Positions 17,504 through 47,959 of a DNA stretch of 64,000 bases are shown one piece after another. Position numbers and translations under genes: made by a program. Under the pieces are notes generated by a model. The model saw only the letters and a list, made by a program, of their open reading frames with translations, searched no databases and had not been told where the DNA came from. How positions within the stretch are numbered: the stretch's first letter is position 1; every line of letters starts with the position of its first letter. Location: NCBI GenBank assembly GCA_009746045.1, contig RPFO01000175.1:186001-250000 (forward strand), written 5' to 3'. Source of the DNA: Mesostigma viride (taxonomy: Eukaryota; Streptophyta; Mesostigmatophyceae; Mesostigmatales; Mesostigmataceae).

Positions 17504-17605
17504 AGTTGTACAAGCTAATGCTTATACTTTTTATGCGCAAACCTTTTAGCTAAGGTTAACGCATATACTTACATCCTGCGCAGGATGTAAGTACGCACAA
17601 GGGTG

Positions 17606-19006: not shown

Positions 19007-19430
19007 AGCAAAGAAAGAGGCCGACAAAACCAGCCAGAGCGGCTTTTAGTCGCAAAACCTCCCTTATCCCTAGCTAGCTAACTGACGTCATTAAACCCTT
19101 ATGTTCAGTGATGCTAGTAAGACGCTAACCGTACAGACCGGGGGTAGAATATCCCGAATCTGCACGGCTAGTATTAAACAATGCGTAGGTTGTTCTTTTC
19201 AGGGGCACTGCACCTCACGCCCCGTTCCGCCCGCGGGTATAATCAACCCAAGCGCGGAACGCACATTTTATTTAATTCATTTTTCAACCATGCACTATAC
19301 TGCATCTACTAATCACAAAAGCTCTAGCCAAACAGCTACGAGAAAACACTACGAACCTCTAAGCCGCTCATCCAGCGGCCTCTTGTTCCCGCATTCACGT
19401 ATAGAAGAAACTCCGTTCAAAGAACCCCGA
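19007..19430 (+). repeat. Direct repeat A, copy 2
   Basis: Second copy of the 17,606-18,036 repeat. Differences are a duplicated GCTA and a CG insertion. It joins directly to repeat B copy 1. Confidence 0.85.
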
Positions 19431-26991: not shown

Positions 26992-27319
26992 TGGATGGCT
27001 TTCCTTACAATTAATTAATTAATTGATTCCTTACAATTCCCGTTGCAGCCTGCTCCCCCCTGCATTTAACAAATCATAATCAGATAGGATTGCAGGGCAT
27101 AAATGGAAGATGTTAATAAATAAGCATATACACCAAATTTCAGTTGCAATAACTGCATGACCATCATCAAGGAGCGTGCTAATTGGGTGTCTGACAATTG
27201 GACCACAAAAACTGTCGCGTATTTTACCGCCGCGTATTTTACACCCCCCACGTATAATACGCGTATTTTAGGTCCGCGTATTATACCCCGTACACGTATT
27301 TGCCAACGCGGCGGTTTAT

Positions 27320-27902
27320 TGCCTGCCTGAGAGGGGAAGGGAATCACTATTCTATGGGCTACTTGCTGTCATCACAGCGTAGGCCCAGAGGCATTATAAT
27401 GATTACCTTCTTGTGTTCTTGCAATTGCAGTTGAACAAGATTATGCGTCAGACATGATTGTATTAGGAATAGATTCGGAACTCAGATTGACTGAGGTGGG
27501 TGAGTCGGCGCATTGAGGAACGACTGTCTTGTCCATCGTCCTCGCACACCTTTATGCCAAGCAGTGCCACTAGGTCGGCACTGCTGTTCCAACCCTTGTG
27601 GCCCGGAACATTCCATGCGAATATTCCACGCTTAATTTCCGTTACTGTAGTGGGCCGAACTACGGGTCGAACATAGGGCTGATCGACCTCTAACCATGTC
27701 CGTGGTAACCGTCGTTACGTTATGCCATCGGACACACATCCATCGATATATATCCCAATGTCACCAATATTACTCTAGATATCAAGTGTCGGCACCCTCG
27801 TATACACAAGCAGAGGTGTGCCGGAAGGTATGGACTTCAAACCACCTTAGGTATCTATCTCTTTTTGCACGTATCTTTTTATACCATATTTCTTTTGCCC
27901 AT
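27320..27902 (-). repeat. Gypsy 5' LTR, middle piece
   Basis: Matches about 9,791-10,385 of the 3' LTR, with minor differences near 27,500 and 27,810. It is cut at AT (27,901-27,902) by the 20-kb element. The last piece is 47,912-47,959. Confidence 0.9.
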
Positions 27903-27942
27903 AGCAATACCCCACCACACTCATCGAAAATGGCTGTGTTTG
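27903..27942 (+). repeat. Left terminal inverted repeat of the 20-kb element
   Basis: 40 bp identical, in reverse complement, to 47,872-47,911. Weaker similarity continues inside (both reach an ACCGGTTC word about 20-25 bp further in). Subterminal 28,085-28,190 is rich in AACGG and GGGGGTTAC words. Confidence 0.95.
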
Positions 27943-28444
27943 AGACCCCCCGAAAAACACCGGTTCCATCAACCTATGTTAACTTTGTTCGTCCGATTTC
28001 GGCCGTTTTTTCAATCGACGCACCTGGCACTGCGAGATCCACCCTACTTCAGATCTGGACTTAAATGCCTCGGAAGAAAACGGGGGGTAAAACGGTAACA
28101 AACGGTCAACCGACGTATAGAAACGGAAACGCGACCGGGGGTTACTGACTGACAGACCGGGGGTTACAGGGGCGGACACGCGAAGGTCACCGCCGGTTAC
28201 GAGCTGGGCATTACAGTGACCGAGACTCGGAGGTCGTTGGGGTGGGCCGTTGTGGTTGAATGAAATGGAATAATACGTGAGTGTTGTTGCGATGGTGGCT
28301 GCGCACTTGACAGACTATTATAGCGTTGAAAATGTACAAGCTAGCTAGCTAGAAACGCGTATCGAGATAACGTGATAGAGGGGAAGGCGGCATGGTGCCC
28401 CGGGCTTTTTGCAGCAAAGCCTGGGGCAGATGGGGGTGTAATGT

Positions 28445-30072
28445 GTGTCTGCCTGGATATTAAGCAGTGGCCTCACCATTGCGGTGGGGTGTGCAGTAGG
28501 CCTGCGGGGACCAGGCAACACTATTTATTATGCAGAAATCACAAAGATATTGCGGTGGGATCAGGTGAAGCCCAGGGATGGACTGGAGCAGCACGGCAAT
28601 GTAGAGGCCGGTGACCAGTGGGCAGTGGAGGGGCGGTGGTTTTATGAACCACAGGAGCTGCCACCCGCGCTAGCCCAGGCCGTTTGCTGGCCGGGAGAAT
28701 CCCGCGGGCTTGTCCTTTTGCCAAGCTCCGCGGGTGGTGATTTTCCCGGCCAGCATGATTTGCGGCATCGTGAACGTTCAGCCGCCTTGGAGCCCTGACC
28801 TGCTGCTGCAAACCGATGCGGTTGTCCCGCAGGCAAGTTGTATTTCTTCACTCTTGTTGATTGAGTTTATGCCAAGCATTATAATGCGTCTCTTGTATTC
28901 GTTCTTACCGGCTTCCATGCAATGCCTGCGAGTTTATGGACTTTTGCGAGATGGTTTTCCCACAGCTTTTCTACTGGAAGAATGAGGGCAAGCTCCAGCC
29001 CATCGGGCCCCCGTCAGCAAAGGCATTTGCGGAAGCAATGCCGCAGCTGACGGCGGTGGCCACCGGTGGCAGCCCGGTGGTGGCAAGCCTGGGGCAGCGC
29101 GCCTTTAGCCAGGCAATGCGGGCTGCCATGCGTAGTCACTTCGCAGGCCACCTCTCGGAGCGTGCACCGGCTGGGAACCTCCGGTTCTTCACCGTGTGCA
29201 CGTCATCCAACGCCTTCCTGTCCCTGCCCGAGGGTGTGCTAAAGGCATTCGTGCCGTGTGACGGGCCTGGCAGCGACGGCAGTGTTTTGCTGGTACGTCA
29301 TGTTTGCATCTTTTCCTTTTGCTTTATCACTTTGTGCTGTGAAATTCTGTAATGCTTTCAACAAACTGTGATGATTGCCTAATGCTTTAGCTAGGGTAAT
29401 ATTGCACTGGCGTCCTAAATAATGCAGGCGTCGTTCGAGGATCCCTCCAAGCTGTCGAGCCTGCTCGGCAACAACTGGTGGGAGATGACATACAAGAGGA
29501 CCTCCAAGATGGAGGTGCACGGGCCCATAGAGTTCATCCACGCGCCGGCCACCGGCATCACCACGTAAGTTGCTGTTGACAAGGTGTCCTCGTTGTTTTG
29601 CTTGTTTGTCAAGCTGTCCTCGTTGCTTGTCTGCCCGTGTGCATGGCATGTGACTTCACTTGCCTGACCCAATGTTGTATACCCGATGTTATGCCTTGCT
29701 TAAACCACCCAATGCTGTCTCGAACTTGGTGCAGCTTCCGAAGCGCTCACGTGCGATCCATCAGCAAAGGTGGGCGCGTGCAGTGGGACACGGAGGACAC
29801 GTCCACCTTCCGCAGGTAAGGAAATTGCTTTCTCAGTCAGGGTGGGTTGGGGGTGGGGGACAGCTGCTTGTGCAACACATGATGAATCTGACTTACTCAT
29901 ATCTTTTCTTGTCTGCATGCGGTGCTTTTCTTGCCTTGTGTTTCATGGCAGTTACAAGGAGCAAATGGCAACGAGGGCAGCGAGGGAGGAGAAGAAGGCC
30001 GCCAGGTCGAAGAGGAAGGCTGACAAGAGCGGCGCGGTGGAGGATGGCAGACCAAGCAGCAGCACCAAGTAA
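28445..30072 (+). CDS. Five-exon gene with BAH-like domain, carried by the 20-kb element
   Basis: Exons: about 28,445-28,832, 28,966-29,292, 29,428-29,564, 29,735-29,815 and 29,952-30,072 (stop TAA). All later joins keep phase. Intron 1 appears to be GC-AG (GCAAGT...CCCACAG); the others are GT-AG. Exon 1 resembles a BAH domain (YYAEITKILRW, VEGRWFYEPQEL, then VVIFPASMICGIVNVQ), but a one-base shift near 28,710-28,730 separates its halves. The middle is unrecognised (FYWKNEGKLQPIGPP; GNNWWEMTYKRTSKMEVHG). The C-terminus is a Lys/Arg-rich tail suited to nuclear localisation. BAH domains bind histones or DNA-methylation machinery, so a chromatin role is inferred. The exact start is uncertain. 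The protein is about 350 residues. Confidence 0.7.
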
Positions 30073-30375
30073 GCTCATGCTTAGTAGTAGCTCATGCTTA
30101 GTAGTAGCTCATGCTTAGTACCATACCGTGTTCCATTTCTCTTCTTAAAACTGGGATTACCCATGTGCCCACCTGTAAAGCATGCAAGTGCTCCATTATA
30201 GAGGTATTGATACTGCGGCTTAGTGTATAAAAATCTGAGCTGGCATGCATGGGTATAGCCACATTAAAATTACAAGGCTAGATGCATAATGTATTAATTA
30301 AACGTGACGTGAGCATGCATCACAACCAACTACTCAATGCCATCACCATGCATGGCCCTCTACTGTTGTGCTGTG

Positions 30376-33053
30376 CCATCCTCCTCCCTCCTCCCTCCTC
30401 CCTCCTCCCTCCTCCCTCCTCCCTCCTCCCTCCTCCCTCCTCCCTCCTCCCTCCTCCCTCCTCCCTCCTCCCTCCTCCCTCCTCCCTCCTCCCTCCTCCC
30501 TCCTCCCTCCTCCCTCCTCCCTCCTCCCTCCTCCCTCCTCCCTCCTCCCTCCTCCCTCCTCCTCCTCCTCCTCCCTCCTCCCTCCTCCCTCCTCCCTCCT
30601 CCCTCCTCCCTCCTCCCTCCCTCCTCCTCCTCCCTCCTCCCTCCTCCCTCCTCCCTCCTCCCTCCTCCTCCTCCCTCCTCCCTCCTCCCTCCTCCCTCCT
30701 CCCTCCTCCCTCCTCCCTCCTCCCTCCTCCCTCCTCCCTCCTCCCTCCTCCCTCCTCCCTCCTCCCTCCTCCCTCCTCCCTCCTCCCTCCTCCCTCCTCC
30801 CTCCTCCCCCTCCCTCCTCCCTCCTCCCTCCTCCCTCCTCCCTCCTCCCTCTACTGTTGTGCTGTGCCATCCTCATCCCTCCTCCCTCCTCCCTCCTCCC
30901 TCCTCCCTCCTCCCTCCTCCCTCCTCCCTCCTCCCTCCTCCCTCCTCCCTCCTCCTCCTCCCTCCCTCCTCCCTCCTCCCTCCTCCCTCCTCCCTCCTCC
31001 CTCCTCCCTCCTCCCTCCTCCCTCCTCCCTCCTCCCTCCTCCCTCCTCCCTCCTCCCTCCTCCCTCCTCCCTCCTCCCTCCTCCCTCCTCCCTCCTCCTC
31101 TCCTCCTCCCTCCTCCCTCCTCCCTCCTCCCTCCTCCCTCCTCCCTCCTCCCTCCTCCCTCCTCCCTCCTCCCTCCTCCCTCCTCCCTCCTCCCTCCTCC
31201 CTCCTCCCTCCTCCCTCCTCCCTCCTCCCTCCTCCCTCCTCCCTCCTCCCTCCTCCCTCCTCCTCCTCCCTCCTCCTCCTCCCTCCTCCCTCCTCCCTCC
31301 TCCCTCCTCCCTCCTCCCTCCTCCCTCCTCCCTCCTCCCTCCTCCCTCCTCCCTCCTCCCTCCTCCCTCCCTCCTCCCTCCTCCCTCCTCCCTCCTCCCT
31401 CCTCCCTCCTCCCTCCTCCCTCCTCCCTCCTCCTCCTCCCTCCTCCCTCCTCCCTCCTCCCTCCTCCCTCCTCCCTCCTCCCTCCTCCCTCCTCCCTCCT
31501 CCCTCCTCCCTCCTCCCTCCTCTCCTCCCTCCTCCTCCTCCCTCCTCCCTCCTCCCTCCTCCCTCCTCCTCCTCCCTCCTCCCTCCTCCCTCCTCCCTCC
31601 TCCCTCCTCCCTCCTCCCTCCTCCCTCCTCCCTCCTCCCTCCTCCCTCCTCCCTCCTCCCTCCTCCCTCCTCCTCCCCTCCCTCCTCCCTCCTCCCTCTC
31701 CCTCCTCCCTCCTCCCTCCTCCCTCCTCCCTCCTCCCTCCTCCCTCCTCCCTCCTCTCCTCCCTCCTCCCTCCTCCTCCTCCCTCCTCCCTCCTCCCTCC
31801 TCCTCCTCCTCCTCCCTCCTCCTCCTCCCTCCTCCCTCCTCCCTCCTCCCTCCTCCCTCCTCCCTCCTCCCTCCTCCCTCCTCCCTCCTCCCTCCTCCCT
31901 CCTCCCTCCTCCCTCCTCCCTCTCCCTCCTCCTCCCTCCTCCTCCTCCCTCCTCCCTCCTCCCTCCTCCTCCTCCCTCCTCCCTCCTCCCTCCTCCCTCC
32001 TCCCTCCTCCCTCCTCCCTCCTCCCTCCTCCCTCCTCCCTCCTCCCTCCTCCCTCCTCCCTCCTCCTCCTCCCTCCTCCCTCCTCCCTCCTCCCTCCTCC
32101 CTCCTCCCTCCTCCCTCCTCCCTCCTCCCTCCTCCCTCCTCCCTCCTCCCTCCTCCCTCCTCCCTCCTCCCTCCTCCCTCCTCCCTCCTCCCTCCTCCCT
32201 CCTCCCTCCTCCCTCCTCCCTCCTCCCTCCTCCCTCCTCCCTCCTCCTCCTCCCTCCTCCCTCCTCCCTCCTCCCTCCTCCCTCCTCCCTCCTCCCTCCT
32301 CCCTCCTCCCTCCTCCCTCCTCCCTCCTCCCTCCTCCCTCCTCCCTCCTCCCTCCTCCCTCCTCCCTCCTCCTCCTCCCTCCTCCCTCCTCCCTCCTCCT
32401 CCTCCCTCCTCCCTCCTCCCTCCTCCCTCCTCCCTCCTCCCTCCTCCCTCCTCCCTCCTCCCTCCTCCCTCCTCCCTCCTCCCTCCTCCCTCCTCCTCCT
32501 CCTCCTCCCTCCTCCCTCCTCCCTCCTCCCTCCTCCCTCCTCCTCCTCCCTCCTCCCTCCTCCTCCTCCCTCCTCCCTCCTCCTCCCTCCTCCTCCCTCC
32601 TCCCTCCTCCCTCCTCCCTCCTCCCTCCTCCCTCCTCCTCCTCCCTCCTCCCTCCTCCCTCCTCCCTCCTCCCTCCTCCCTCCTCCCTCCTCCTCCCCTC
32701 CTCCCTCCTCCCTCCTCCCTCCTCCCTCCTCCCTCCTCCCTCCTCCCTCCTCCCTCCTCCCTCCTCCCTCCTCCCTCCTCCCTCCTCCCTCCTCCCTCCT
32801 CCTCCTCCCTCCTCCCTCCTCCCTCCTCCCTCCTCCCTCCTCCCTCCTCTCCTCCCTCCTCCCTCCTCCCTCCTCCTCCTCCTCCTCCTCCTCCTCCTCC
32901 CTCCTCCCTCCTCCCTCCCTCCCTCCTCCTCCTCCCTCCTCCCTCCTCCCTCCTCCCTCCTCCCTCCTCCCTCCTCCCTCCTCCCTCCTCCCTCCTCCCT
33001 CCTCCTCCTCCCTCCTCCTCCTCCTCCTCCCTCCTCCCTCCTCCCTCCTCCCT
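30376..33053. repeat. 2.7-kb (CCCTCCT)n heptanucleotide array
   Basis: Almost uninterrupted CCCTCCT heptamers with occasional CCT trimers. The 26-bp left flank phrase CTCTACTGTTGTGCTGTGCC recurs inside at about 30,848, so part of the array was duplicated with its border. It is open in all three plus frames (PPSSLL repeats) and on the minus strand (GGRREE repeats); none is a gene. The minus strand (GGGAGGA)n has strong quadruplex potential. It starts 300 bp after the BAH-like gene. Confidence 0.98.
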
Positions 33054-33279
33054 TCTTTATATGACCGGATGCAATGATTATATAACAATTGGTTTGAAGC
33101 AGTATACATGTGTCATCAATTTTTGTAGTTAATTCATTAATGACATCTGTATATAAATTATAAGCAATGGCCGGGCTGGGCAGGCCGCAGCTCGGCACTG
33201 GGGCTCGGGTTAGTATGTGGCGGTGCCCACATTTGCTGAATCCCCTGCCACCAGCCACGATCGTTTGCCCCCTTGTATG

Positions 33280-33767
33280 CCCACAACGCGCGCATGCCCC
33301 ATGGTTACGCTTTATTATAAAAACCATTATGGTGGATGCAGGAAGAACACTGCACACGCCAAGCACCTGCCCATCACCATGCGTGATGGTGACAAGATCA
33401 GCCAAGGTGCTATCAAGGCGCAGCTGGAGCTCGGGCCATGAAGTTTTACACCAAGGGTGTGGATGGGCAGGTGGAATACAGGTGGGACTGGGGGGTCGTG
33501 ACCCAGCCGGTCTACGACTCTCGCAGGGGCAAGTATAACACAGAAATTCAGTTTACTGATGGGTTGTGGGATTGCTGCCTGGATGAGAAGAAAAGGATAA
33601 GGGAGCTAGGGAGTGACATGGGGGTCGATGCCCGCGTAGGGTCTTGGCTGCTCATTGCAGATGCGGATATATTGAGTAAAGCATGTACATTAGTGCAGAC
33701 ACCCCATGCTGTGGAGTGCTGTTTTAAGGAGAGAAGCCCAGGCGCCCTCCCTCTCGTCGTGCATTAG
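33280..33767 (+). CDS. Small unrecognised ORF pair in the 20-kb element
   Basis: Two plus-strand segments in adjacent frames: 33,301-33,441 (MVTLYYKNHYGGCRKN...) and 33,438-33,767 (MKFYTKGVDGQVEYRWDWG...). They read as one protein if a single base is missing near 33,438, or as two exons. The second contains YNTEIQFTDGLWDCCLDEKK and ends in TAG. It converges tail-to-tail with the transposase-like gene. No family is recognised. It may be another cargo gene or a remnant of an exon set whose 5' part lies beyond the heptamer array. Confidence 0.45.
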
Positions 33768-33994
33768 ACGCCGACGTTCATTGCCTACTTTAGTACATGC
33801 CTCAACCTGTTTATAAAGTCACAGTTGCATGTTTAATTGTGTTCACTTGTTTTATTTTATTTTTGAATAAATATATTTTCACGCAAACAACCAATGACAA
33901 ATTCAGGCCATGTAAATAATTTATTATTATTTGGAACATACAATGCGTGTTTGTATAGATCGGGTTGCCCGTTCACATGTATTATACGTCATTG

Positions 33995-36900
33995 CTATGT
34001 TCTTTGGGACTTGTGCACGGGACCCTCAGGCACATCAGCCGTGCCAGTAACGTCAGCCGTGCCGGTAAGGTCCACACTAGTTTCCTCATCGTCATAATCG
34101 GATAACCATGTTTCATCCTCTTCTTCTTCGTCATCATAGTTGTCGTCTTCATCGTCTGATTGTGCTTCGTAGTCCACGTCGTAGTCATAGTCTGGGTCGT
34201 CATCATCCTCTTCATCCCTCTTGGTGTCCTTCTTGGCGCGGGCAGCGAATACGTCTAAGGGATTCTCAATTTCCATGTCGTACTCTGGTTCAGTAGTATG
34301 GCCATTCGCTGCCCAGTCATAAACTGTTTTGGCCATCTCATCGTTGCGCAGGAACTTGGCAACTTTGGGATCTGAAATGACTTGGTGAAATCGAGTCACA
34401 TTGGTTCGGCCTTGCATTTCCATGAATTGTAGGCAGGGGTCGTTGGGTTTCTGCGCATGAACCGCCTTGATCCTGATGGTCCCTTTCGCACCATTCCATC
34501 CCTCCTGTTTCCGTTGAGCTTCACTTGGCCGGTACTGGACTGGACCTGCCGTGGTTCCGCTTGCACCCTTCATCCCGCTAGTCTCTTTAACATAGCTGTT
34601 AGGGAGCGCATGGTGCTGTTCTGTTCCTGATTGGTCGACACGACCGTCACGACGCATAGTGACTAGCCATATTACAAATTGCCACAAATGTGCCCCTATA
34701 GTGTGTAAGTAGAATGCACCAGAATCACTATCGCTGTAATGGGCCACAAAGCGCCATTGGAAACGCAGGCACAACCTAGGGAAAGTGGCAGACTGCTCTA
34801 ATGTTGGTTCTTTACTCTCACAGATATCGACTATCTCTTTCAGGTCTCTCCATAGCTCCTGAGTCCTGGGGTTACTATCGAACAACGGTACCCATTTCTC
34901 CCACTGCTCGAGGAGCTTTTTGGCTTGATAGCCTTGGAACTTCACCACCTTGTAAGCTGGGGTTTTCAGATTGCCCTTCTCGTTGGGACTGCACTTCCAA
35001 ATATTCCATCCCACTCCGATGGACGCCATGGTCTTGTTAAAAGCCTCCACCTTCTTGTCCTTGATGATTTTCTCCTGCAGCGGCTTCATTTGGCATTCCA
35101 CCATCCTCACTCTCGTGTGTAGGGGATCAGGAGGGTAATGCTTGCTCACCTTGTACTTGGTAAACATGTCGTTGAGCCCAGCTGTGCGGTGGCATTTCCA
35201 AAGCCGTGGCACTCTGACGTACTGCCGTGATGTTTGAGCTTTGCCTGAAGTACACCACCTGGGCACATCACGACCCACTTCGTTCCCGGCTGAGAAGGTG
35301 ATGTTTTCTAGTGCCTGTACTTGGATTGAAAGTTCTTTTTTATGCGGGAGTTTGTTGTCGCGAGTTCTTTTCGATGCGAGAGGTGGGTTTAGCTCAACTA
35401 GGTCTTCCACCGTGATGTGGTGCTCCTCAGCGAACTCCTCCGGTGTCTGACCAGTTTTGGGCACTTTGAGTTCGCAAACTTTAGTCCGGTCATCCTTGGT
35501 ACACTCACAGCAGCAGCAGAACATGCCGTCGGGGTCGTGGAGGCCTTTGAGGCCACGGAACGCCCATTGTGCTTTCATGTCTCCTGGAAAGTAGACCTCC
35601 ATGGTAACGCCCGTTTCTTCACCATCTATGATCACCGGCAGTTTGTTGTCGGCAAGCCAGTCCGCAACAGCCATATACTCTTTGCCGTTGGCCTCCAGGT
35701 ATTCTCGGTCGTCCCCGCCCTCGAACAAAGCCACGGAGTAGTGGTGCTTGGAGCTGAACCACTCGTCTTCAATCCCGTCTTCAATCAGGCGGATGACACA
35801 GGAGGTAATCGCTGTGTGGCTCTTGTAGATGGTGTGCCCGTCGGCAGAGAAAGCAACGCGGATCTTGATGTTTTTCTTGTCTCAGAAGCATTTAAGCCCC
35901 GGTTTTCTGTTGTACAAGTCCATGACAAGGACCTGGATCAGCGTGTAAGTGGAGATAGCGTGGCCCTTACTGGCAGCCCCCCTGCCAGAGCTGAAGATGG
36001 GAAATACCTTTTGGGCACTGGCGGTTTTTTTCTTCTTCGTGCGGAGAAAACGGTTGACGCCAGGGACTAGGGGTCCCAAAAAGGACTTGAGTTTTCTAAG
36101 GGTAAATAGCGAAAAACGTGCATCATCCGCCACATCCACCCAGGCATCCACGTCCTTATTGATTTTCTTCCTGAAGCGTCTGATAACATTGAGCTTGTCA
36201 TCGCGCTTTGCCCACGCCGGGAGCGCGGCCCTCAGGTCTTTCGCAGACAGAGTAGTGTTTCCCGCGTGTTCCTCCACAACTGCCCTTATAAGGTCTCCAC
36301 GAGAGGTCACGTTCCTGTCTGCTTTCCCCATATTGGCCTTTTCAAGATCGATCAACATCTCCATCGCCGTGTTAACCACCTTAAAGCATCCCCAGTAGGC
36401 TTCCTTGATGCCGGCCCGCAGCGCCTCCCGCTCATTGTCGTGGGTCCTGCTGTTTGATGTTACTCCTTTACTTTCCTTCGTGCGGCGTGCATGTTGAATG
36501 CGTTGTACTACCGCTGGCAACAAGCATACCTCACACTTGCACTTTGGTGCTGCTGCCTTGCGGGTCTGCGCAGCTGCGCCTCCGGATGCTGCGGTGGCCA
36601 AACCTGTCCGAGGCGCTGGACAAGCGTCTGCCGTGGTGCGGCTGCCAAAGGCGGGATGCGCACCTGCCCTGCCAGGTAAGGTCTGGGCAGCTGACCTCAT
36701 GTATGTCATGTTGGACGCTATACGGAATCCCGTTGTGCCGGCAGTTCTTCCGCGTGAGCCCGACGCGGTACCAGCAGCATGAGCAGTGGCGTTCGCCCCC
36801 CCCGCCTGCGCCTGCTCCCCCCCCTCGCGCGTTGACGTCCTTGCCGCAGGGCTGGCTGCCGCCGTCCCCACTGCCCCCCCCGCCTGCGCATGCTCCCCCC

Positions 36901-39195
36901 CCTCGTGCGGTGGCGTCCTTGCCGCCGCGCTTGCCGCGGGCGCAGGGCTGACTGCCGCCGGTCCCGCCCCCCCCCCCGCCTGCGCCTGCTGCCCCCCGCA
37001 CGCGCGGTGGCGTCCTTGCCGCAGGGCTGACTGCCGCCGTCCCCGCCTGCACGTGCTGGCCCCACACGCGCGGTGGCGTCCCTTTCCCCGTCGCCGCGCT
37101 TGCCGCGCGCGCAGGGCTAGCTGCCGCCGCCCCCCCGCCCCCCCTGCCTGCGCATGCTGCCCCCCTGGCACGCGCGGTGGCGTCCAATTGCCACCGCGCT
37201 TGCCGCGCGCGCAGGGCTAGCTGCCGCCGCCCCCCCCGCCTCCCCTGCCTGCGCCTGCTGCCCCCCCACGCCTGTTGATGTCCTTGCCGCCACGCTTGCC
37301 GCGGGCGCAGGGCTGACTGCAGCCGGCCCCCCCCCCCCCGCCTGCGCCTGCTGCTCCCCCACGCGCGGTGGCGTCCTTGCCGCAGGGCTGATTGCCGCCC
37401 TCCCCGCCTGCACGTGCTGGCCCCACACGCGCGGTGGCGTCCCTTTCCCCGTCGCCGCGCTTGCCGCGCGCGCAGGGCTAGCTGCCGCCGCCCCCCGCCT
37501 GCGCCTGCTGCCCCCCTGGCACGCGCAGTGGCGTCCTTGCCACCCCGCTTGCCGCGCGCGCAGGGCTAGCTGCCGCCGCCCCCTCCGCCCCCCCTGCCTG
37601 CGCCTGCTGCCCCCCCACGCCTGTTGATGTCCTTGCCGCCACGCTTGCCGCGGGCGCAGGGCTGACTGCAGCCGGCCCCCGCCCCCCCCGCCTGCGCCTG
37701 CTGCCCCCCACGCGCGGTGGCGTCCTTGCCGCAGGGCTGACTGCCGCCGTCCCCGCCTGCACGTGCTGGCCCCACACGCGCGGTGGCGTCCCTTTCCCCG
37801 TCGCCGCGCTTGCCGCGCGCGCAGGGCTAGCTGCCGCCGCCCCCCCGCCCCCCTGCCTGCGCATGCTGCCCCCCTGGCACGCGCGGTGGCGTCCTTGCCG
37901 CCGCGCTTGCCGCGCGCGCAGGGCTGACTGCCGCCGGTCCCGCCCCCCCCCGCCTGCGCCTGCTGCCCCCCCACGCGCGGTGGCATCCTTGCCGCAGGGC
38001 TGACTGCCGCCGTCCCCGCCTGCACGTGCTGGCCCCACACGCGCGGTGGCATCCCTTTCCCCGTCGCCGCGCTTGCCGCGCGCGCAGGGCTAGCTGCCGC
38101 CGCCCCCCCGCCCCCCTGCCTGCGCATGCTGCCCCCCTGGCACGCGCAGTGGCGTCCAATTGCCACCGCGCTTGCCGCGCGCGCAGGGCTAGCTGCCGCC
38201 GCCCCCCCGCCTCCCCTGCCTGCGCCTGCTGCCCCCCACGCCTGTTGATGTCCTTGCCGCCACGCTTGCCGCGCGCGCAGGGCTGACTGCCGCCGCCCCC
38301 GCCCCCGCCTGCGCCTGCTGCCCCCCCACGCGCGGTGGCGTCCTTGCCGCAGAGCTGACTGCCGCCGTCCCTGCCTGCACGTGCTGGCCCCACACGCGCG
38401 GTGGCGTCCCTTTCCCCGTCGCCGCGCTTGCCGCACGCGCAGGGCTAGCTGCCGCCGCCCCCCCCGCCTGCGCCTGCTGCCCCCCTGGCACGCGCGGTGG
38501 CGTCCTTGCCGCTGCGCTTGCCGCGCGCGCAGGGCTAGCTGCCGCCGCCCCCCCTGCCTGCGCCTGCTGCCCCCCCACGCCTGTTGATGTCCTTGCCGCC
38601 ACGCTTGCCGCGGGCGCAGGGCTGACTGCCGCCGCCCCCCCCGCCTGCACGTGCTGCCCCCCAAACACACTTGCAGGTTGCGCACTTGCCACTGAGGCTT
38701 CGCCCTGTGGTGTGAGCGGCGTGGCGTTTGATGATGCGACCCTGTCTAGAGCTCGAGGAAGTACAGGGGTGCGCGTAGTGTTGGCATGGGATAGAGTACG
38801 GTTGTGGTCAGCACGGGTTGCCATGCCATGCGTGGATTTCCTCCCTGCGGAGACCGGCCCACCATCGTTGCGTTCTTGGGGGGCTTCCCCGGGCGTTTCG
38901 GCAGGAGTGCCACGACCTTCCCTGTTCAGCTGTAGCCGTAGTTCAGCTATGTCGCGCTGGAGGTCTTGAATAATAACCACCAGAGCATTGGTGATACTAC
39001 CCAGGAGAAATGCTTTGAGCAGGGACCCCAGCTGACCTTCGCCCTGCCCATCTTTCTTAGTAGTCCACCCGAAGATTTTGGCCAGCTCCATCCCATGTTG
39101 GATCATTTTCTTGCTGATTCCAGATAGAAAGAAGTTTTGTGCCATGCTGTCATGTCCTTCCATGGCACATGTCCAAAGCTGCATCTTCTGGCAGC
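33995..39195 (-). CDS. Transposase-like gene of the 20-kb element (with minisatellite and in-frame TGA)
   Basis: Exon starts after a TTTTGCAG acceptor at about 39,195 (first Met 39,184). The N-terminus has helices (FLSGISKKMIQHGMELAKIFG; IIQDLQRDIAELRLQLNREG). The GC-rich minisatellite (36,790-38,650) follows, then CKCEVC, then a basic helical block. A single TGA at 35,882-35,884 lies in frame; reading continues through AFSADGHTIYKSHTAITS and EVYFPGDMKAQWAFRGLKG to a Cys cluster (FCCCCECTKDD). Then come DPLHTRVRMVE, FYLHTIGAHLWQFVIW and SGTEQHHALPNSYVKETSG, and an acidic tail. This motif order resembles an uncharacterised transposase-like family known from invertebrates and protists. Asp (SADG), Asp (PGDMK) and Glu (GTEQHH) are candidate catalytic residues (inference). 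Frame changes in the minisatellite and the TGA may be decay or assembly error. Confidence 0.65.
36790..38650. repeat. GC-rich coding minisatellite with 355-bp higher-order unit
   Basis: Repeats of about 60-105 bp are arranged in a higher-order unit. The phrase TTTCCCCGTCGCCGCGCTTG recurs at about 37,084, 37,442, 37,794, 38,056 and 38,410, with spacings of roughly 355 bp (one of 262). In the transposase-like frame, units read as AAASPARAASAA, GQQAQAGG, TPPRV and QHVQAGTAAVSP. C-runs of 5-10 differ in length between units and change the frame. Confidence 0.92.
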
Positions 39196-40212
39196 CTGCA
39201 AAATTGCAATTTTGGAAAGAGGAAGTAAACAGGATAAAGAAACTGGGCAGGTATGTGAATAGATCCAGCATGTGTTTTGCTCTTTGCCCAAAGTGATTTT
39301 TAGGTATGATCCATCATGGTGGCCGGTGCAGTTGCACCTTGTGCACGCAGAGTAGGTGGCAGTTTACATCCTCCATCTGCAGGTTGTAGCCCAGACTGTA
39401 TTAAAAGCCCATACGTGCCTTCTCAGGGATGTGTGTTACATATGCTCCCCACGGAGCTATGTTCTTAATTAACTAACTAATCAATTGCCCTAAATGAAGC
39501 TCCCTAAAGCTCTATGCTAAACATAAAGCATGTGTGCAACCAGATACTTGGTTATGCAGGGCTGGTGTGTGCGTATGCCCCTTCTCATGGATATGTGCTA
39601 CGTGTACTCCCAACGGAGATATGTTCCAATTTAATTTAATGGAAGTAAAGGCAAACCCAAACTGAACCAACGCGAATGCCACTCATCTTTGTTATACATT
39701 AAACAATATAGCTATTCATTAATTAATCTATATGTATTTATCTTTGATGTATATTATGGAGACAACCTGCGCATACATCGTCCATTTTATGTATACCGGC
39801 GCCTCTAAATGTGTTCCAAGCCTATCTGTGGGCTCTGGACCATGGGGTGCACGTACCCGAGGACGTGGCAGTTTACACCCACCACCTGCAGGTTGTCGCC
39901 TAGCATGCCCCCGCGGCCTTCGCGTCTTTCCTCTCAGACAACTACCCTAGTCCTTCCGCGGCGTTGGATCGCCATGCGTCCAGGCATAGTTGTCTCACTT
40001 CATACTGATAATAAATCTTGTTGTCTCCTTGATATATGGCGCCTGCATGCAATCTTAGCTAAATTACTGATCTGAATTGATATGCATTATTCCAATTAGT
40101 AGTTAGCATGAGCTGCGAGTTGTCCTATGTCAAAATTGCTAACTAATACTGCTACCAGATAAGGCAATTACTTACACAAGAGCCCCATACATCAGGGAGG
40201 CACTCTAGACTA
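39196..40212. other. No gene seen (upstream of the transposase-like gene)
   Basis: Intron or 5' region of the minus-strand transposase-like gene. It has two similar phrases (GTGTGTTACATATGCTCCCC-like at 39,430 and 39,590). No upstream exon could be defined. Confidence 0.4.
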
Positions 40213-40850
40213 CTCAAATTAATTAAACTCGTGCTCCTGTTGGGGAGTCACGTAGCATTAACCCCTATCTATGGATGGATGGATGGATGGATGGATGGAT
40301 GGATGGATGGATGGATGGATGGATGGATGGATGGATGGATGGATGGATGGATGGATGGATGGATGGATGGATGGATGGATGGATGGATGGATGGATGGAT
40401 GGATGGATGGATGGATGGATGGATGGATGGATGGATGGGTGGGTGGGTGGGGGTGGGTGGGTGGGTGGGTGGGTGGGTGGGTGGGTGGGTGGGTGGGTGG
40501 GTGGGTGGGTGGGTGGGTGGGTGGGTGGGTGGGTGGGTGGGTGGGTGGGTGGGTGGATGGATGGATGGATGGATGGATGGATGGATGGATGGATGGATGG
40601 ATCGATGGGTACACGCAATCCTACCCGTCTAAGCTACAGTATCTACAGGCTATCTACAAAACAATCCTATTCTATATCTATGGTGCTCGCGACCCTAGGG
40701 GTCTTGTCTAGCATGCCTCCCGCGTCATCAAACACGCTCCTTCCCCACTGCAGGGGGCTTGTTGTCCTCTATGACCTGGGCCCCCTTGGCCTTGTCCATA
40801 ATCTTTTTCCAAATCACGGAGAGGCCTAGCCCCCCATGTTCTCTACGAGC
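40213..40850 (-). mobile_element. LINE-B 3' end, 5'-truncated, with expanded (ATGG)n
   Basis: Minus-strand copy of the LINE-B 3' terminus. It runs from the coding end (reverse of CATAATCTTTTTCCAAATCACG) through the 3' UTR to a TTAATTAATT tail at 40,213-40,227. The short ATGG run of the other copies has grown here to about 340 bp (40,271-40,608), with a central GGGT block. Inserted after the 20-kb element formed. Confidence 0.85.
40271..40608. repeat. (ATGG)n / (GGGT)n microsatellite
   Basis: Blocks of GGAT, then GGGT, then GGAT. Open in several frames (DGWM, GGWV); not genes. Confidence 0.97.
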
Positions 40851-41250
40851 TGGGGACTACTCATGGTGGTGGAGGTGTTGGCATCCTTATCCATGCTACA
40901 ACACTGGCTCTGCCTTGCGCACACATCTAGTGTTACGGAAGATTCAAGCCCAACCACCCATTACATACGGAATAGCCAATATATCAATGACACGGCATAT
41001 TTTGAGAGCCAATATCAATTGAGAATGAATGGCTGTACCAATGCATGGTAATGCGCGCTGTTCGCTAGCCAACCAATAATGCCATGGCAGTTTTACGAAT
41101 GGCCTGGAAGTTCTGCTAGTCAACCACGAATAGCCTAACATTTCCACAATCATGGCATACCATCTAGCTCATTAACTAAATAAAACATGAAGGTCATCAA
41201 GAGCAAACCCTGGTTGTCAGGATCTGGCCATCATTGGTAGGCCACAGTCG

Positions 41251-41736
41251 TCACCCAAACGGTACTACATTACTTATAATGATAGTCTCCCACTTGGCAG
41301 AAAAGCAATAAACAGCTTGTGTGGCAAACGGTTCAAGCTTGGCGGTATCTGCAATGGCCATATACACTTGATGGGCAAGATCTCGATGGGCAGTAAAAAA
41401 TGTGCACTTACAAGAACTGAACAAGCATGCAAGAAAAAAAATCAAGCTAGTAATGAAACGGGGGCACTTGGCTAATTCATGCATACCCAGGGTAGAAACA
41501 TGCAAGTTTGAACCACAATGTGTGCACACATTGACAGAAATCAATGAGCAAGATCACTTCCAAAGGCAATACCAACGGACAACAAGCTAGGGGCAGGGTA
41601 AAAGCTGTCAACGTAGTTGAGGACATCATGGTAACGTAAGAATTGCAGGCATACATTGCATTGTAAGTACAAAATAGATGAGAAGCAACTCTCATCTATT
41701 CTTTTCTTCAGATTTTCTTTATCTGCCATGACTTAC
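41251..41736 (-). other. Possible downstream exons of the zinc-finger gene
   Basis: A segment ending in TGA at 41,251 reads FFTAHRDLAHQVYMAIADTA and then CFSAKWETIII, preceded by a TTCAG site near 41,410. Another open stretch lies at about 41,600-41,690. The phase needed after exon 3 could not be satisfied convincingly by either one. Confidence 0.3.
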
Positions 41737-43311
41737 CTTGTAGTATTGTTGCTGCAGGCTTGACCAGTTGTGACAGAGATGGCACAGTAGGAGGACCTGG
41801 GTTACTCTGCACGTCCAAAACATTTGAGGAATTACATTTGGAGACGAAACATGAACCAGTCAAGCATATACCAAGAAAAGCCTGAGCACAGTCACATGTA
41901 ACTGAAATAACATGTGTTTCCCCTAACACAGAAACTAAGCAAATCAACAACTATCACTAACGAAGGGATATGGCAGAAAAGAAATGAGGAAATATTTACC
42001 TCCACGCCGCCAATCATGAGCAACATCATAAGAAGAACCCTTGATGGCAAATCGCCGTCCAACTTCCAGACAGTTTGATGCAGCCAGTAGCAGAGGCCCC
42101 AGCTCACGGACGTGGGCTCGCCCTTGCTGTCCAGATCAGACTCCTCGTGGCCCCAAACAAAAACCTTTGCAGCCTGAGACACCCACATCCTCTCCGCAAC
42201 CTGAAACACCCGCATCCTCTCTGCAGCCTCGAGCACCCGCTTTATGTCTCCAGCCTCCAGCACCCGCTTCATGTCTGCAGCCTGCGGTTTCATGGGCATA
42301 CGTATACGTTGGTGATCAAGCCAGCAAGACAACTACAACAAGGAGTAAGACGCCCTTCATGATGCATGAAAGTACTAACACCCACGCATGAAGGCACTTA
42401 TACCTACCAAAGCTAAACGGCAATGAAAGCACTAATACCTACCAAAGGCACACGGCAATAAATATAAAATTTCAGCAATTGCGAAAAGAACGCACCTGCG
42501 CCTTCCTCTTTTCGATAAGGTACCGGGCATGTGTGCACCGTTGCTTCCCTCTGCGGCACTGCTGCTGCTGCTGCTGCTGTCCCCGCAGCCTGCCCTTCCC
42601 CTTGCCTTTCTTACCCTTCTGTCCCTTTGGGGAATGCTTGGACTGCTTGCCTCCCTTGGGTTGCTGCCAACCTGGACTTTTCCCATCGCCACGGCCCAAA
42701 TCACCAGCAGACTCTGGCTTAGAGCGACTCTTCCGGTCACAGACATTGCCGCCTTTGCAAATTATGGCGCGCGGGTCATATCGAGGCAGCGGCGCATAGT
42801 AGTTTCCTGTCTTTACGTGCATTATAGTGGTAAGATTGATGGAGGACGGAGGGCCCCTTCCCGGAAGTGAAGAGACTCGGACGGCCACTTCCTCCCACGC
42901 CACTTCCTCCACTTCCGCGGCGACTTCTTCGCCTGCGTCAATCCGTGGACGTGCGCACACCTCGCAAATAGGCGCAAGAGGCAGATTATCTGCCGTGCAG
43001 GTTACGCAGGTCCAATCCCCCAACGCGGCATCCGGCAATGAGAGTGCCGGGCCGGGCACAACTGTGTCCACATTTCCTCTCTCCACCGCCGTCGTAGTGG
43101 TCAGAATGATGGAAGACAAAAGACACCCGGCCAATCCCTCCACTTCCGCGGCCACCTCCTCTCCTGGGTCAATCCGAGGCCGTTCGCATACCGCGCAAAA
43201 TGGCGCAAGAGGCTCATTGTCTAGCGTGCAGCTCCTGCAGGCCCAAGGCCCTGATGCGGCATCCGGATCGTACTTAACCACCTGCACATATGTCGGCTTT
43301 GAACAAGCCAT
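41737..43311 (-). CDS. Zinc-finger gene (two RanBP2-type fingers) with 2A-like motif, partial
   Basis: Exon 1 (43,311-42,496, ATG start), exon 2 (42,281-42,000) and exon 3 (41,881-41,737) join in phase at GTGCGT/CGCAG and GTAAAT/CTCAG sites. Residues about 22-48 (WACRSCTLDNEPLAPFCAVC) and about 93-120 (WTCVTCTADNLPLAPICEVC) are W-x-C-x2-C-x10-C-x2-C fingers of RanBP2/NZF type, which bind RNA or ubiquitin. A basic K/G/Q-rich stretch ends exon 1. Exon 2 has amphipathic repeats (RVLEAGDIKRVLEAAERMRV) and a hydrophobic LLMMLLMIGG. Exon 3 contains VLDVQSNPGPP, close to the 2A ribosome-skipping consensus. It ends in phase 1 at GTAAGT, so at least one more exon follows; candidates lie at 41,251-41,700. 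Probably cargo of the 20-kb element. Confidence 0.65.
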
Positions 43312-43635
43312 GAGGCAAGTATTTAATTCCTTTTAGGTACCCACCGAAAGTCGTATGTGAGCATGCACGTTGCACGTTTGCCGAAATTTCCCGTTACATT
43401 AATATTCTATAAAACGAGTGCCATAGCCTACCTTCCCTGCCTGCCCTGCATGCCACGGAGGCAGGTGGTCACTATAACTCGCGGTCACATCATTCCAAAA
43501 AGACATTTTTCCACCCTGAAAATTATTCTAGGATAGGCTAATGATTAGTTTGGCCTCAAATTTGGCACCAAGGTGCCTAATCAGATATCTTATGGTGGCA
43601 TGTGGTCAAATAATTTTTTGGGAGTCGGCAGCATG

Positions 43636-44865
43636 GTAACATGGTGACATTTGCTAGCATAAAAATACCGAATTTTCAGCACTTTCTGGCATGTATGCGT
43701 ATATAATGACATCAAATGAACTCAGTTGGGCCTGGAACTTTGCACATGTTATAAACACATCCCATGCAGCATGCCCACAAAGTTTCAGGCTGGTTGGATT
43801 ACAAAATGGTGACAGATGCTAGCATAAATACCCCCCAAATGCAGTTTTTCAGGGTTTTCCAAGGGTTTCATCACACATATGCATATATAATGACGGAGCG
43901 GGCCAAGCTCCTGGCCTACGGCGACGTCGGGCACCATCGTGTGGTGCCCTTTGTCCTGGAGGAGTTTGGGGCCATGGGGCCCCTGACCTCCGCCTTCTTC
44001 AAGGAGTGTTGCCGGCTCCGGGAGGACCGGCTGGACCTGGAGGGCCAGCGGGCCCCATGGTCGGCGCGGACCTGGACGTCATATTGGCGTCAGCGCTTGT
44101 CGGTGGCGCTGACTCGGGCCATGGCTGACATCATGCTCCGCCGTACGCGGGCTGATTTTGCGGTCACTGCAGCAGGGCTATTAGGTTCCTCCCGTTAGGC
44201 GTTTCCATTGGTCTTATCGTAGTATAGAGCTTTGACATGGCTCTGTATATAGGTTTATAGCTGGGCGTTTGCTTTGGTTTGAGTGATTTCACTCTGCTGT
44301 AAGTAATTATATTTTTAATATATAATGACACCAAATGAACTCAGTTGGGCGTGGAACTTTGCACATGTTCGAAACACATTCCATGCAGCATGCCCACAAA
44401 GTTTCAGGCTGGTTGGATGACAAATTGGTGACAGATGCTAGCATAAATACCCCCAAAATGCAGTTTTTCAGGGTTTTCCAAGGGTTTCATCACACATTTG
44501 CATATATAATGACATCAAATGAACTCAGTTGGACCTGGGACTTGGCACATGTTTGAAACACATCCCATGCAGCATGCCCACAAAGCTTCAGGCTGGTTGG
44601 ATGACAAAATGGTGACAAATGCTAGCATAAATACCACAAAAATGCAGTTTTTCATGGTTTTTCAAGGGTTTCATCACACATGTGCATATATAATGACATC
44701 AAATGAACTCAGTTGGACCTGGAACTTGGCACATGTTCAAAACACATCCCATGCAGCCTGCCCACAAAGCTTCAGGCTGGTTGGATAGCAAACTGTTGAC
44801 AGATGCTAGCATAAATACCACAGAAAAAGCAGCTTTCTATTGTTCTTCCAAGGGTTTCATGGCAA
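43636..44865. repeat. About 185-bp tandem repeat, 4-5 copies
   Basis: Units contain GACATCAAATGAACTCAGTTG, TTTCAGGCTGGTTGG and TGCTAGCATAAATACC in fixed order. Period is about 184-190 bp. Copies: a degenerate partial one (43,636-43,700), one split by a LINE fragment, and three intact ones. Short open frames repeat with each unit and are not genes. Confidence 0.93.
43895..44318 (+). mobile_element. LINE fragment (C-terminal end) with 11-bp target duplication
   Basis: Bounded by TATATAATGAC on both sides (43,884-43,894 and 44,319-44,329). It encodes about 100 residues ending in TAG (VVPFVLEEFGAMGPLTSAFF; WTSYWRQRLSVALTRAMAD), which resemble the C-terminal end of some non-LTR or related reverse transcriptase polyproteins. 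An AT-rich tail precedes the right duplication. It differs in sequence from LINE-A and LINE-B. Confidence 0.75.
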
Positions 44866-45005
44866 TCATTCCACCTTGGTGTACAGAAGGTTCCAAACAA
44901 CACATCATTACATTATGCATCATATTTACAATGCAGGAAGGCATACTTGGGGGCACATGCCTATAGTACAATGCATTAATAACACAGCTCTAGCCAGCTA
45001 GCTAG

Positions 45006-45282
45006 CTATATAGTGGCTAATGCCACACCCGGGGGCACTTTCTCACGGCCCTGCTGCATCCTTTTCCTTTTCTTCTTCTCTGCATCTGACAGGGGCCTGC
45101 CCCCCATCTTCTCATCCACCAGCCTGGTGAGCACCCTGACGTTGCATGGTGACTTGCGTCAGCTACCCTACCCCCATGGCACGCTTGGCCTTACGCTTGG
45201 TGAAGGTGGAGGGGTGGGTGCGACAGTTGGTCTGGGTTTTCATCACCCCCTTCCTCCAGTGCATGCGTGTGCTCCAACGCCT
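45006..45282 (-). CDS. 3' end of an unrecognised lysine-rich protein gene
   Basis: The last segment (about 45,155-45,006, TAG stop) reads [20 protein letters not shown], then a KKKRKRM basic run and a short tail. Just upstream, 45,282-45,167 follows a CTGCTTAG acceptor and is also basic ([13 protein letters not shown]). The two are about 12-30 bp apart in different frames, so either a base is missing or the join is elsewhere. Upstream exons would lie beyond the (CCCT)n array. It may be a nuclear protein; no family is recognised. Confidence 0.4.
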
Positions 45283-45289
45283 AAGCAGA

Positions 45290-45392
45290 GAAGCACACAC
45301 ACACATACACACACACACACACGTCGATCCCTTACCCACCCACCCACCCACACCCACGTACACATGTATCCACCCACCCATGCATACACGTA

Positions 45393-45455
<63 letters not shown>

Positions 45456-46642
45456 GTCATACCCTCCCTCCCTCCCTCCCTCCCTCCCTCCCTCCCTCCC
45501 TCCCTCCCTCCCTCCCTCCCTCCCTCCCTCCCTCCTCCCTCCCTCCCTCCCTCCCTCCTCCTCCCTCCCTCCCTCCCTCCCTCCCTCCCTCCCTCCCTCC
45601 TCCCTCCCTCCCTCCTCCCTCCCTCCCTCCCTCCCTCCCTCCCTCCCTCCCTCCCTCCCTCCCTCCCCCTCCCTCCCTCCCTCCCTCCTCCTCCCTCCCT
45701 CCCTCCCTCCCTCCCTCCCTCCCTCCCTCCCTCCCTCCCTCCCTCCCTCCCTCCCTCCCTCCCTCCTCCTCCTCCCTCCCTCCCTCCCTCCCTCCCTCCC
45801 TCCTCCTCCCTCCCTCCCTCCCTCCCTCCCTCCTCCCTCCCTCCTCCTCCCTCCCTCCCTCCCTCCCTCCCTCCCTCCCTCCCTCCTCCTCCCTCCCTCC
45901 TCCCTCCCTCCCTCCCTCCCTCCCTCCCTCCCTCCTCCCTCCCTCCCTCCCTCCCTCCCTCCCTCCCTCCCTCCCTCCTCCCTCCCTCCCTCCCTCCCTC
46001 CCTCCCTCCCTCCCTCCCTCCCTCCCTCCCTCCCTCCTCCTCCCTCCCTCCCTCCTCCCTCCCTCCCTCCCTCCCTCCCTCCCTCCCTCCCTCCCTCCCT
46101 CCCTCCCTCCCTCCCTCCCTCCTCCCTCCCTCCCTCCCTCCTCCCTCCCTCCCTCCCTCCCTCCCTCCTCCCTCCCTCCCTCCTCCCTCCCTCCCTCCCT
46201 CCCTCCCTCCCTCCCTCCTCCCTCCCTCCCTCCTCCCTCCCTCCCTCCCCCTCCCTCCCTCCCTCCCTCCCTCCCTCCCTCCCTCCTCCCTCCCTCCCTC
46301 CCTCCCTCCCTCCCTCCCTCCTCCCTCCCTCCCTCCCCTCCCTCCCTCCCTCCCTCCCTCCCTCCCTCCCTCCTCCCTCCCTCTCCCTCCCTCCCTCCCT
46401 CCCTCCCTCCTCCCTCCCTCCCTCCCTCCTCCCTCCCTCCCTCCCTCCCTCCCTCCCTCCCTCCCTCCCTCCCTCCTCCCTCCCTCCCTCCCTCCCTCCC
46501 TCCCTCCCTCCCTCCCTCCCTCCCTCCCTCCCTCCCTCCCTCCCTCCCTCCTCCCTCCCTCCCTCCTCCTCCCTCCCTCCCTCCCTCCCTCCCTCCTCCC
46601 TCCCTCCCTCCCTCCTCCTCCCTCCCTCCCTCCCCCCTCCCT
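45290..46642. repeat. Compound microsatellite (CA)n-(CCCA)n-(ACGC)n-(CCCT)n
   Basis: Blocks in order: CA (45,295-45,322), CCCA (45,336-45,382), ACGC (45,394-45,453), a GCAGTCAT joint, then about 1.2 kb of CCCT with CCT trimers. The same order and the same joint recur at 62,502-63,303. Frames through it (SLPP, EGGR) are not genes. Confidence 0.97.
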
Positions 46643-47871
46643 CATTCATACACCCGTTCATTCATGCATGCAGCCGCTCATCATTAACACGCCTCCGTTG
46701 GGAAACTCACGGGGTATGAACTATGAAACGGGCGGTAAGAAAGGAAGAAGGAGCCGCCTCCCCAACATGCCGCGCCCGGCAAAGGCAGCGATGGGCCGTC
46801 CAGGAGGGAAACACTGCGCTTTGCCTTGTACGCCGGGGTGCGCAGGCGACGTGCGGGCACTGTTGCGTGTAAATTTGCCTGCCCGCCCCAGTCCTTCTCG
46901 GAACGCCTCCCCAGAGCATGCCGTCATGGTAAGAGCTCTTTTCGCCCGTCGCCGGAAGCTTAAAACACAAGAATACGCCGGTTAATGACCAGAAAATGGG
47001 GGGTTGTCGACGTTATAAACCAGTAGCTGTGGTTTTTCCCGCACCCCGAGCACACTCCGGACGGGGCCAACAAGCCCCGCCCGCAGGATAAACACCGGGC
47101 GATGTTGCTGCGCCCAAGGGAAGTCATATAGCTGCAAGAAAAGACGTAAAAGCGATTAAAAGCACGACATACAGTGTTGCCCCTGTCAGCGCTCCTATAA
47201 TTCTCACTTTTTCGCGGAAGGGGCGTAAAAATGGGAAACGCAAAATTAAGGGAAATCCATCGCTGGGTTTCTTTGAAATGATGTTAGGAACTGGTAGAAT
47301 GTGTTCATGACAGCCGAGAGCATGTTTTTCCTGTCTGTGTTTTACCTTGCACACACACGGGTCGGGCCGGTTGGTGTGCAAAACGCCCGCCTGCTGCCCA
47401 CGTGCCCTCGCTGCAGAAAAAAAAGAAACTGTTTTTCAGGTTTTTTAATGTACGATACTTTTCCTTATGTAATCAACGTCCGAACAAGCGAAATAACGTC
47501 CAAAATGGTTGCGTATTAATCAGCTCGCAATAAATTTTCGCGTCACCATAGCCGTGCACACCGAATTTCAGTCAACATTGCACGCGCGCACCGAATTTCG
47601 TCAACTTTCGCGCGGGAATTACGGGGGCGTGCAAGGCGCGGCGCCGGACTGATGTGGTTCCATCGTACGGTTACGGATACGGTCCATGACAACTCCTTGT
47701 ACGGTGTGTGAAATCCCTCGTACGGGCGACAAAATTCCTTCATACGGTCCATGACAACATCCTACAGTTTCGGTTCTCTCAGTTTCCGTTACTCAATTTT
47801 AGGCACCGCGCAGTGGTTCGACGGTACTTGGGCACCAAAAAGGACTGAACCGGTCGCGAAAAATATACCCC
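46643..47871. other. No gene supported (right inner part of the 20-kb element)
   Basis: A plus-strand frame of 105 codons (46,668-46,985) lacks recognisable features. Subterminal 47,640-47,780 has repeated TACGG words and two copies of ATACGGTCCATGACAAC. Confidence 0.4.
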
Positions 47872-47911
47872 CAAACACAGCCATTTTCGATGAGTGTGGT
47901 GGGGTATTGCT
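47872..47911 (-). repeat. Right terminal inverted repeat of the 20-kb element
   Basis: Perfect reverse complement of 27,903-27,942. The LTR sequence CTCTCTCGTGCTCACTAGG resumes a few bases outside. Confidence 0.95.
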
Positions 47912-47959
47912 ATGAACTCTCTCGTGCTCACTAGGTTCGACCCTAGTCGGCACGCTACA
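47912..47959 (-). repeat. Gypsy 5' LTR, outer piece
   Basis: Holds the LTR start TGTAGCGTGCCGACTAGGG (minus strand, from 47,959). It matches 10,385-10,431 of the 3' LTR and is followed on the plus strand by the GGAGG target duplicate. Confidence 0.92.

Follow-up and report, generated by a model that had tools for sequence, protein, structure and literature searches.

A transposon family of the alga Mesostigma viride with a predicted RAG1-related transposase and insertion without target site duplication

The transposon and its ends

A stretch of 64,000 nt from the streptophyte green alga Mesostigma viride (assembly GCA_009746045.1, contig RPFO01000175.1, positions 186,001 to 250,000; in the following called the window) contains a large DNA transposon. 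The whole transposon lies at 27900..47914 (no strand assigned) and comprises 20,015 bp including a nested element of 4,171 bp. It belongs to a family that inserts without duplicating target bases, and its predicted transposase appears to be related to RAG1. We consider it very probable that the transposon is an autonomous cut-and-paste element with a transposase distantly related to RAG1, that it inserts without a stagger and that short elements of the same family are mobilised in trans.

The element is bounded by perfect inverted repeats. The left repeat (27900..27942, plus strand) starts CATAGCAATACC and the right repeat (47872..47914, minus strand) ends GGTATTGCTATG. An earlier note on this DNA had reported perfect repeats of 40 bp; these are present and actually measure 43 bp, with 100% complementarity and the form CATAGC..GCTATG. 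The boundaries, which the note had placed at the repeats, are confirmed by a related sequence in the window that matches the flanks on both sides: positions 9782-10385 match the left flank (27312-27899) at 96% and end at the insertion point, and positions 10389-10431 match 43 bases of the right flank beginning with the third base beyond the repeat. The two related stretches, 9782-10385 and 27312-27899, had been labelled as a gypsy long terminal repeat, a label that is the reading of the earlier note only.

The note had further described the element as a 20-kb DNA transposon. A large transposon is indeed present, but 4.17 kb of it (43486-47656) belong to a different, nested element, and the core amounts to about 15.84 kb once this element is subtracted. 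A simple-repeat expansion occupies 30250..33080 (no strand assigned). The length of 20 kb is therefore inflated by the nested element and by simple repeats.

Throughout the family the ends are well preserved. CAT is found at the left terminus in 34 of the 38 listed elements, and in 8 of 76 ends the repeat has an altered outermost base, which could be due to mutation or to imprecise joining. Within the 43-bp repeat the mean majority is 0.994 (20 left ends) and 0.996 (18 right ends), figures that are biased since the left ends were recruited through their resemblance to the element's first 90 bp. The adjoining blocks of about 43 bp further inward reach 0.82-0.99 on the left and 0.98-0.99 on the right, so the repeat is only slightly more conserved than its surroundings.

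Copies in the genome

All copies were sought in a single host assembly of 440 Mb and 2,243 contigs; contig and locus labels (C.., L..) are those of our analysis. With up to 3 mismatches allowed, the 40-bp end occurs 94 times (46 times on the plus and 48 times on the minus strand); 82 occurrences are exact and 12 have 1-3 mismatches. The reversed pattern, used as a control, does not occur at all, and the end sequence is therefore not found by chance. The search for paired copies that the earlier note had proposed gave 38 pairs in inverted orientation at distances below 60 kb, spread over 31 contigs, and left 18 ends without a partner. Most pairs (33 of 38) span 4.1-9.6 kb; the remaining five span 13.2, 19.6, 20.0, 42.3, and 54.3 kb. 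The two widest pairs may contain nested insertions or may consist of unrelated ends.

Since only one assembly is available and the 42- and 54-kb pairs could be unrelated ends, we considered whether the element results from misassembly or from a chance juxtaposition of two ends. The 38 pairs on 31 contigs, the empty sites described below and the near-identical copies with different flanks leave this explanation with hardly any probability.

A full-length transposase is found at three places (C1912, C1835, and the window), each time between such ends. The earlier note had made its proposal depend on another copy in which both ends enclose the same genes. C1912 is such a copy, as it has both ends, the transposase, the RanBP2-type open reading frame (ORF) and the BAH-like ORF, and the proposal survives; C1835 has the transposase and the BAH-like ORF. 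A comparison of codon-position periodicity among the long copies met with too few differences between them. A separate repeat at 17598-19430 of the window, itself internally duplicated, is also found at two positions inside the C1912 copy and in the flank of L015.

Twenty copies were fetched, of which 17 had the second end within 10 kb. The short elements retain 338 bp of the left end (27900..28237, plus strand; about 85-98% identity by BLAST against the copies), a subterminal block (43291..43485, plus strand, from the comparison of copies) and, at the right end, 259 bp (47656..47914, plus strand; 94-99% identity where the copies show the block), so that about 340 and 450 bp of the left and right ends are kept. 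In most short elements the block 43291-43485 runs directly into 47656 and thus presents the unoccupied site of the nested element, whereas L013 and L023 have an interrupted block. The interior of the short elements has no match to the long element, except that L013 and L024 have about 100 bp (41092-41192) in common with it. Short elements as carriers of the transposase were rejected, because tblastn with five family members (E 1e-3) gave no match in any of the 17 that were examined. For L014, one of these 17, a Pfam search in six frames returned nothing beyond BRWD_AD, which scored 18.9 bits where the cut-off is 40. Two short elements at separate loci, L010 and L019, have different flanks and yet agree in all of 5,379 bp, from which it follows that they transposed recently. 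On C865 a relative of 4.1 kb (L039/L040) was observed in which the inverted repeat extends at least 12 bases farther outward.

Target sites

For the comparison of flanks 37 elements were used, that is the 38 pairs without L012, which occupies the same site as L017. The 42- and 54-kb pairs were included, and the flanks of C1106b and C1106c are identical, which leaves at most 36 independent sites. Not a single element shares 2 bp between its flanks (0/37, with 1.69 expected from mismatched pairs), and the same holds for 5 bp (0/37). One base is shared in 14 of 37 cases, compared with 10.06 expected. Three bp are shared once (TCC, L014) and four bp once (C2100, a tandem-repeat site); the longer flank matches comprise L014 and two tandem-repeat sites, L024 and C2100.

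Four clean empty sites (those of L010, L018, L019, and L027) consist exactly of the left flank followed by the right flank, with nothing lost or gained. The sites of L011, L013, and L020, with 78-85% identity, were not classed as clean, and neither were L023 and the tandem array of L024. The nested element served as a positive control: read in the same manner, its flanks reveal a GT/GT duplication in the window and in C1835 alike. By flanks and by empty sites, the family inserts without target duplication. The 2-bp duplication that had been suggested from the AT/AT flanks has to be given up: the AT is part of the repeat, and a duplication of AT or TA was rejected on the grounds of the 0/37 shared dinucleotides and the four clean empty sites.

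The strongest bias in the flanks is found at position -2, where 55 of 74 flanks carry C or T (chi-square p 4e-4, calculated against approximate flank averages for a position chosen after inspection of ten).

The transposase

The predicted RAG1-related DDE transposase is encoded on the minus strand (33995..36709; ATG at 36709, stop at 33995, about 900 codons). In the window it consists of two ORFs in the same frame divided by one in-frame TGA (35882-35884). The C1912 transposase is open without a stop over 807 codons, and the C1835 and window copies each have one TGA within the matched span. Upstream, a further minus-strand ORF (38192..39313) is partly conserved in C1912 and C1835 and may be an N-terminal exon of the transposase, from which it is separated by GC-rich repeats.

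The genome contains at least 61 transposase matches (56 of 228 candidates scored). Among the matches listed, 3 extend over the full length and 27 are broken pieces located on C1653, C780, and C989; the other 31, with 31-52% identity, come largely from divergent, exon-split families. The broken pieces lie on both strands and recur with matching spacing on C780 and C989 and, in part, on C1653, which suggests duplicated, rearranged copies. Divergent exon-split families are represented by L033, L034, L035, and L036, several of them with multiple similar copies; end repeats were not found within the sequence fetched around these four loci. Among proteins, the sole relatives recovered were two gene models of M. 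viride, which match with 95-97% identity over 13-31% of the queries. Outside the host genome, in searches that depend on shared 5-residue words, no homologue was found with the window ORF at E 0.01 (4706 candidates) or with the family profile at E 1 (best 7996 candidates by shared words).

A family alignment was made from the hand-joined exons of L033-L036 together with the C1912 protein (L009). Identical in all five members are, among others, D197, D284, C305, C308, D435, H438, H576, H581, and E601, and all five have the motif order D, D, C(2)C, H(4)H, E. The RAG1 sequence used for comparison (P0003) has its motifs in the same order (D59, D167, C186/C189, H396/H401, E421). The distance from the second D to the C is 19 in RAG1 and 21 in the family, and the H-H and H-E distances are 5 and 20 in both; the two aspartates are 108 residues apart in RAG1 compared with 87 in the family.

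When the five-member profile was aligned with a profile of five RAG1 and RAG1-like sequences using hhalign, a probability of 94.8% was obtained (P 5.3e-8, score 70.4). The alignment spans 198 columns and takes in the last catalytic E of RAG1. The best of 200 column-shuffled profiles scored 28.0 compared with the real 70.4, and reversed profiles gave 0.1-0.2% against RAG1. Single members compared with the RAG1 profile reached 85% (L035, L036) and 62% (L009, L033, L034). With L035 as a single sequence, 15 of 16 rows of a PDB search were RAG1 (best E 4.4e-5), and L035 was the one member of five with a Pfam match to RAG1 (E 2.2e-4). These comparisons establish, on the level of sequence, that the predicted transposase is related to RAG1, and place it in the RAG1/CACTA ("CMCT") group. 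The transposase-like gene of the earlier note was accordingly well recognised, its minus-strand protein having RAG1-type motifs and the profile match.

Identities as KDZ, EnSpm or PHIS transposases were rejected, as none of them gave a Pfam match. In favour of an ordinary element of the CACTA/EnSpm type whose duplication was overlooked, the whole CMCT group has in common the motifs C(2)C and H(3-4)H and, in most cases, CA..TG termini, as passages of PMC12730594 describe. Such an element would have to escape a reading of flanks that finds 2 bp shared in 0/37 and 3 bp in 1/37 elements while it recovers GT/GT for both copies of the nested element; moreover, no EnSpm transposase profile was matched in Pfam, where RAG1 was the only match named for a recombinase. 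We regard an overlooked duplication as quite improbable.

Other genes and the nested element

A RanBP2-type ORF (42472..43332, minus strand; first ATG used at 43311), situated close to the right end, encodes two zinc fingers. The earlier note had named it correctly, as Pfam PF00641 matches with E 3.3e-9 and 36.3 bits against a cut-off of 27. In the C1912 ORF one cysteine of the first finger is replaced by Y.

The BAH-like ORF region (28381..28985, plus strand) is shifted in frame relative to C1835 and C1912; in C1835 it forms one open frame of 262 codons. The label BAH had been given by eye and is unsupported by Pfam or PDB: no BAH domain was matched in Pfam with the window ORFs, with the peptide joined across the frame change, with the C1835 frame or with an exon-joined version, nor in PDB with the C1835 open frame. 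Kelch or PHD domains, as would be RAG2-like, were not matched in a six-frame Pfam search of five element stretches that are not repeat-rich, in which introns may hide exons.

The nested foreign element (43486..47656, no strand assigned; 4,171 bp) has the termini CACATC..GATGTG and a 2-bp GT duplication, and is probably CACTA-like. A second copy is found in C1835 (L021 2653-5258), and its empty site corresponds to positions 29940-29970 of the window. With the in-frame stop in the transposase, the shifted BAH-like frame and this nested CAC..GTG element, the window copy is damaged.

Discussion

We propose that the DDE enzyme encoded by the element would recognise and bind the 43-bp ends and excise the element. 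Both ends would then be joined at directly opposite phosphates of the target with zero stagger, which would be why no target bases are duplicated. Short elements that keep only the two ends would be moved in trans.

Several results weigh against this reading. The elements and the transposase are tied together by co-location only, and no copy is seen intact throughout, as the frame of C1912 changes just upstream of the 807-codon stretch. The Pfam RAG1 match of L035 scores 19.9 bits and lies under the curated cut-off of 25, and an exon of L034 (L034:1698-2420) matches Pfam DUF1280, which may be derived from a transposase, nearly as strongly (E 0.001, 19.2 bits, cut-off 25). No RAG1 chain was found in PDB with the window ORF, the C1912 protein, L034, or L036 singly, nor with the five-member profile, and four rows of this profile (L033-L036) depend on exon joins made by hand. 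Three related sites are imperfect: the one of the window (at 10385) is off by one base in length and has a substitution, the single site of L012/L017 is off by one G within a run of G, and at L023 the outermost bases are changed and five extra bases are present.

These imperfect sites also bear on a different explanation, in which the element is excised with blunt ends and the end-joining machinery of the host then takes it up at chromosome breaks that already exist. Such capture likewise predicts no duplication and little target preference, and only position -2 is biased; blunt signal ends are moreover a feature of RAG. End joining usually leaves small indels, and all four clean empty sites are without a lost or added base, an argument that is weakened by the less clean sites of L012/L017, the window and L023. 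We consider capture by end joining unlikely, though less so than an overlooked duplication, and prefer direct insertion by the transposase.

In comparison with known systems, the transposase resembles RAG1, Transib and TransibSU (ProtoRAG) in the order D, C(2)C, H(4)H, E, in the nearly equal spacing and in the profile match. The ends differ: those of Transib and ProtoRAG are CACWATG-like and CACAGTG, whereas CATAGCA is found here. A duplication of 5 bp is typical of Transibs according to passages of PMC4411706, in contrast to 0/37 here.

Passages of PMC12730594 ascribe to the CMCT clade (EnSpm/CACTA, Mirage, Chapaev, Plavaka, Lanisha) the motifs C(2)C and H(3-4)H, termini that are mostly CA..TG, and duplications of 2 to 5 bp. 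The family shares the motifs and termini and differs in having no duplication; the 2-4 bp of EnSpm/CACTA, Chapaev, and Plavaka are likewise absent (2 bp in 0/37). ESTA elements, which are fungal, are similar in that their likeness to RAG1 emerges mainly by profile comparison (with HHpred) and in having an accessory gene; their TA duplication and TET/JBP gene, described in the same passages (PMC12730594), were both not seen here. The KDZ elements (Kyakuja/Dileera/Zisupton) are also transposons with accessory genes, but passages of that paper give duplications of 7 bp for Kyakuja and 8 bp for Zisupton, and no KDZ match was obtained in Pfam. Spy, of the PHIS superfamily, shares the lack of a target duplication; from passages of PMC4482050 it has a PHIS transposase and the target AAATTT, while here no PHIS match in Pfam and no such flank motif were found.

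Compared with these lineages by their descriptions, as far as the cited passages give them, the family fits the full definition of no single one. The earlier view that no superfamily could be named thus holds in part: the predicted transposase falls into the RAG1/CACTA group, but zero duplication fits none of the lineages of that group compared here. No description of the family was found in the literature searched, which lay mostly outside subscription journals and did not cover Repbase, and RAG1 is not mentioned in the main text, as far as available, of two Mesostigma genome papers (PMC6947507, PMC7027972).

The family is real and, in our view, a new variant, namely a recently active family of putatively RAG1-related (CMCT-group) transposons without target duplication in a streptophyte alga. 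A bolder interpretation, which we hold only tentatively and judge somewhat less than even in its chances, is a new lineage of RAG1/CMCT elements at the level of a superfamily, with zero-stagger integration and with RanBP2-finger and BAH-like partners of its own that possibly read chromatin in a RAG2-like manner.

RAG1-related transposons are best known from animals, and one of them became the V(D)J recombinase, which rearranges the antibody genes of vertebrates; M. viride is an early-diverging streptophyte green alga. If the bolder interpretation is true, enzymes of the RAG1 type are able to insert DNA without target duplication. Since the length of the duplication is a standard trait of superfamilies, a CMCT-type enzyme without duplication would widen the definition of the group. 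With 38 paired copies, several families and zero footprint, the elements of M. viride would provide an independent lineage for studying how the target stagger is controlled, and the same lineage would allow one to ask whether accessory proteins of the chromatin type recur in the RAG1 group.

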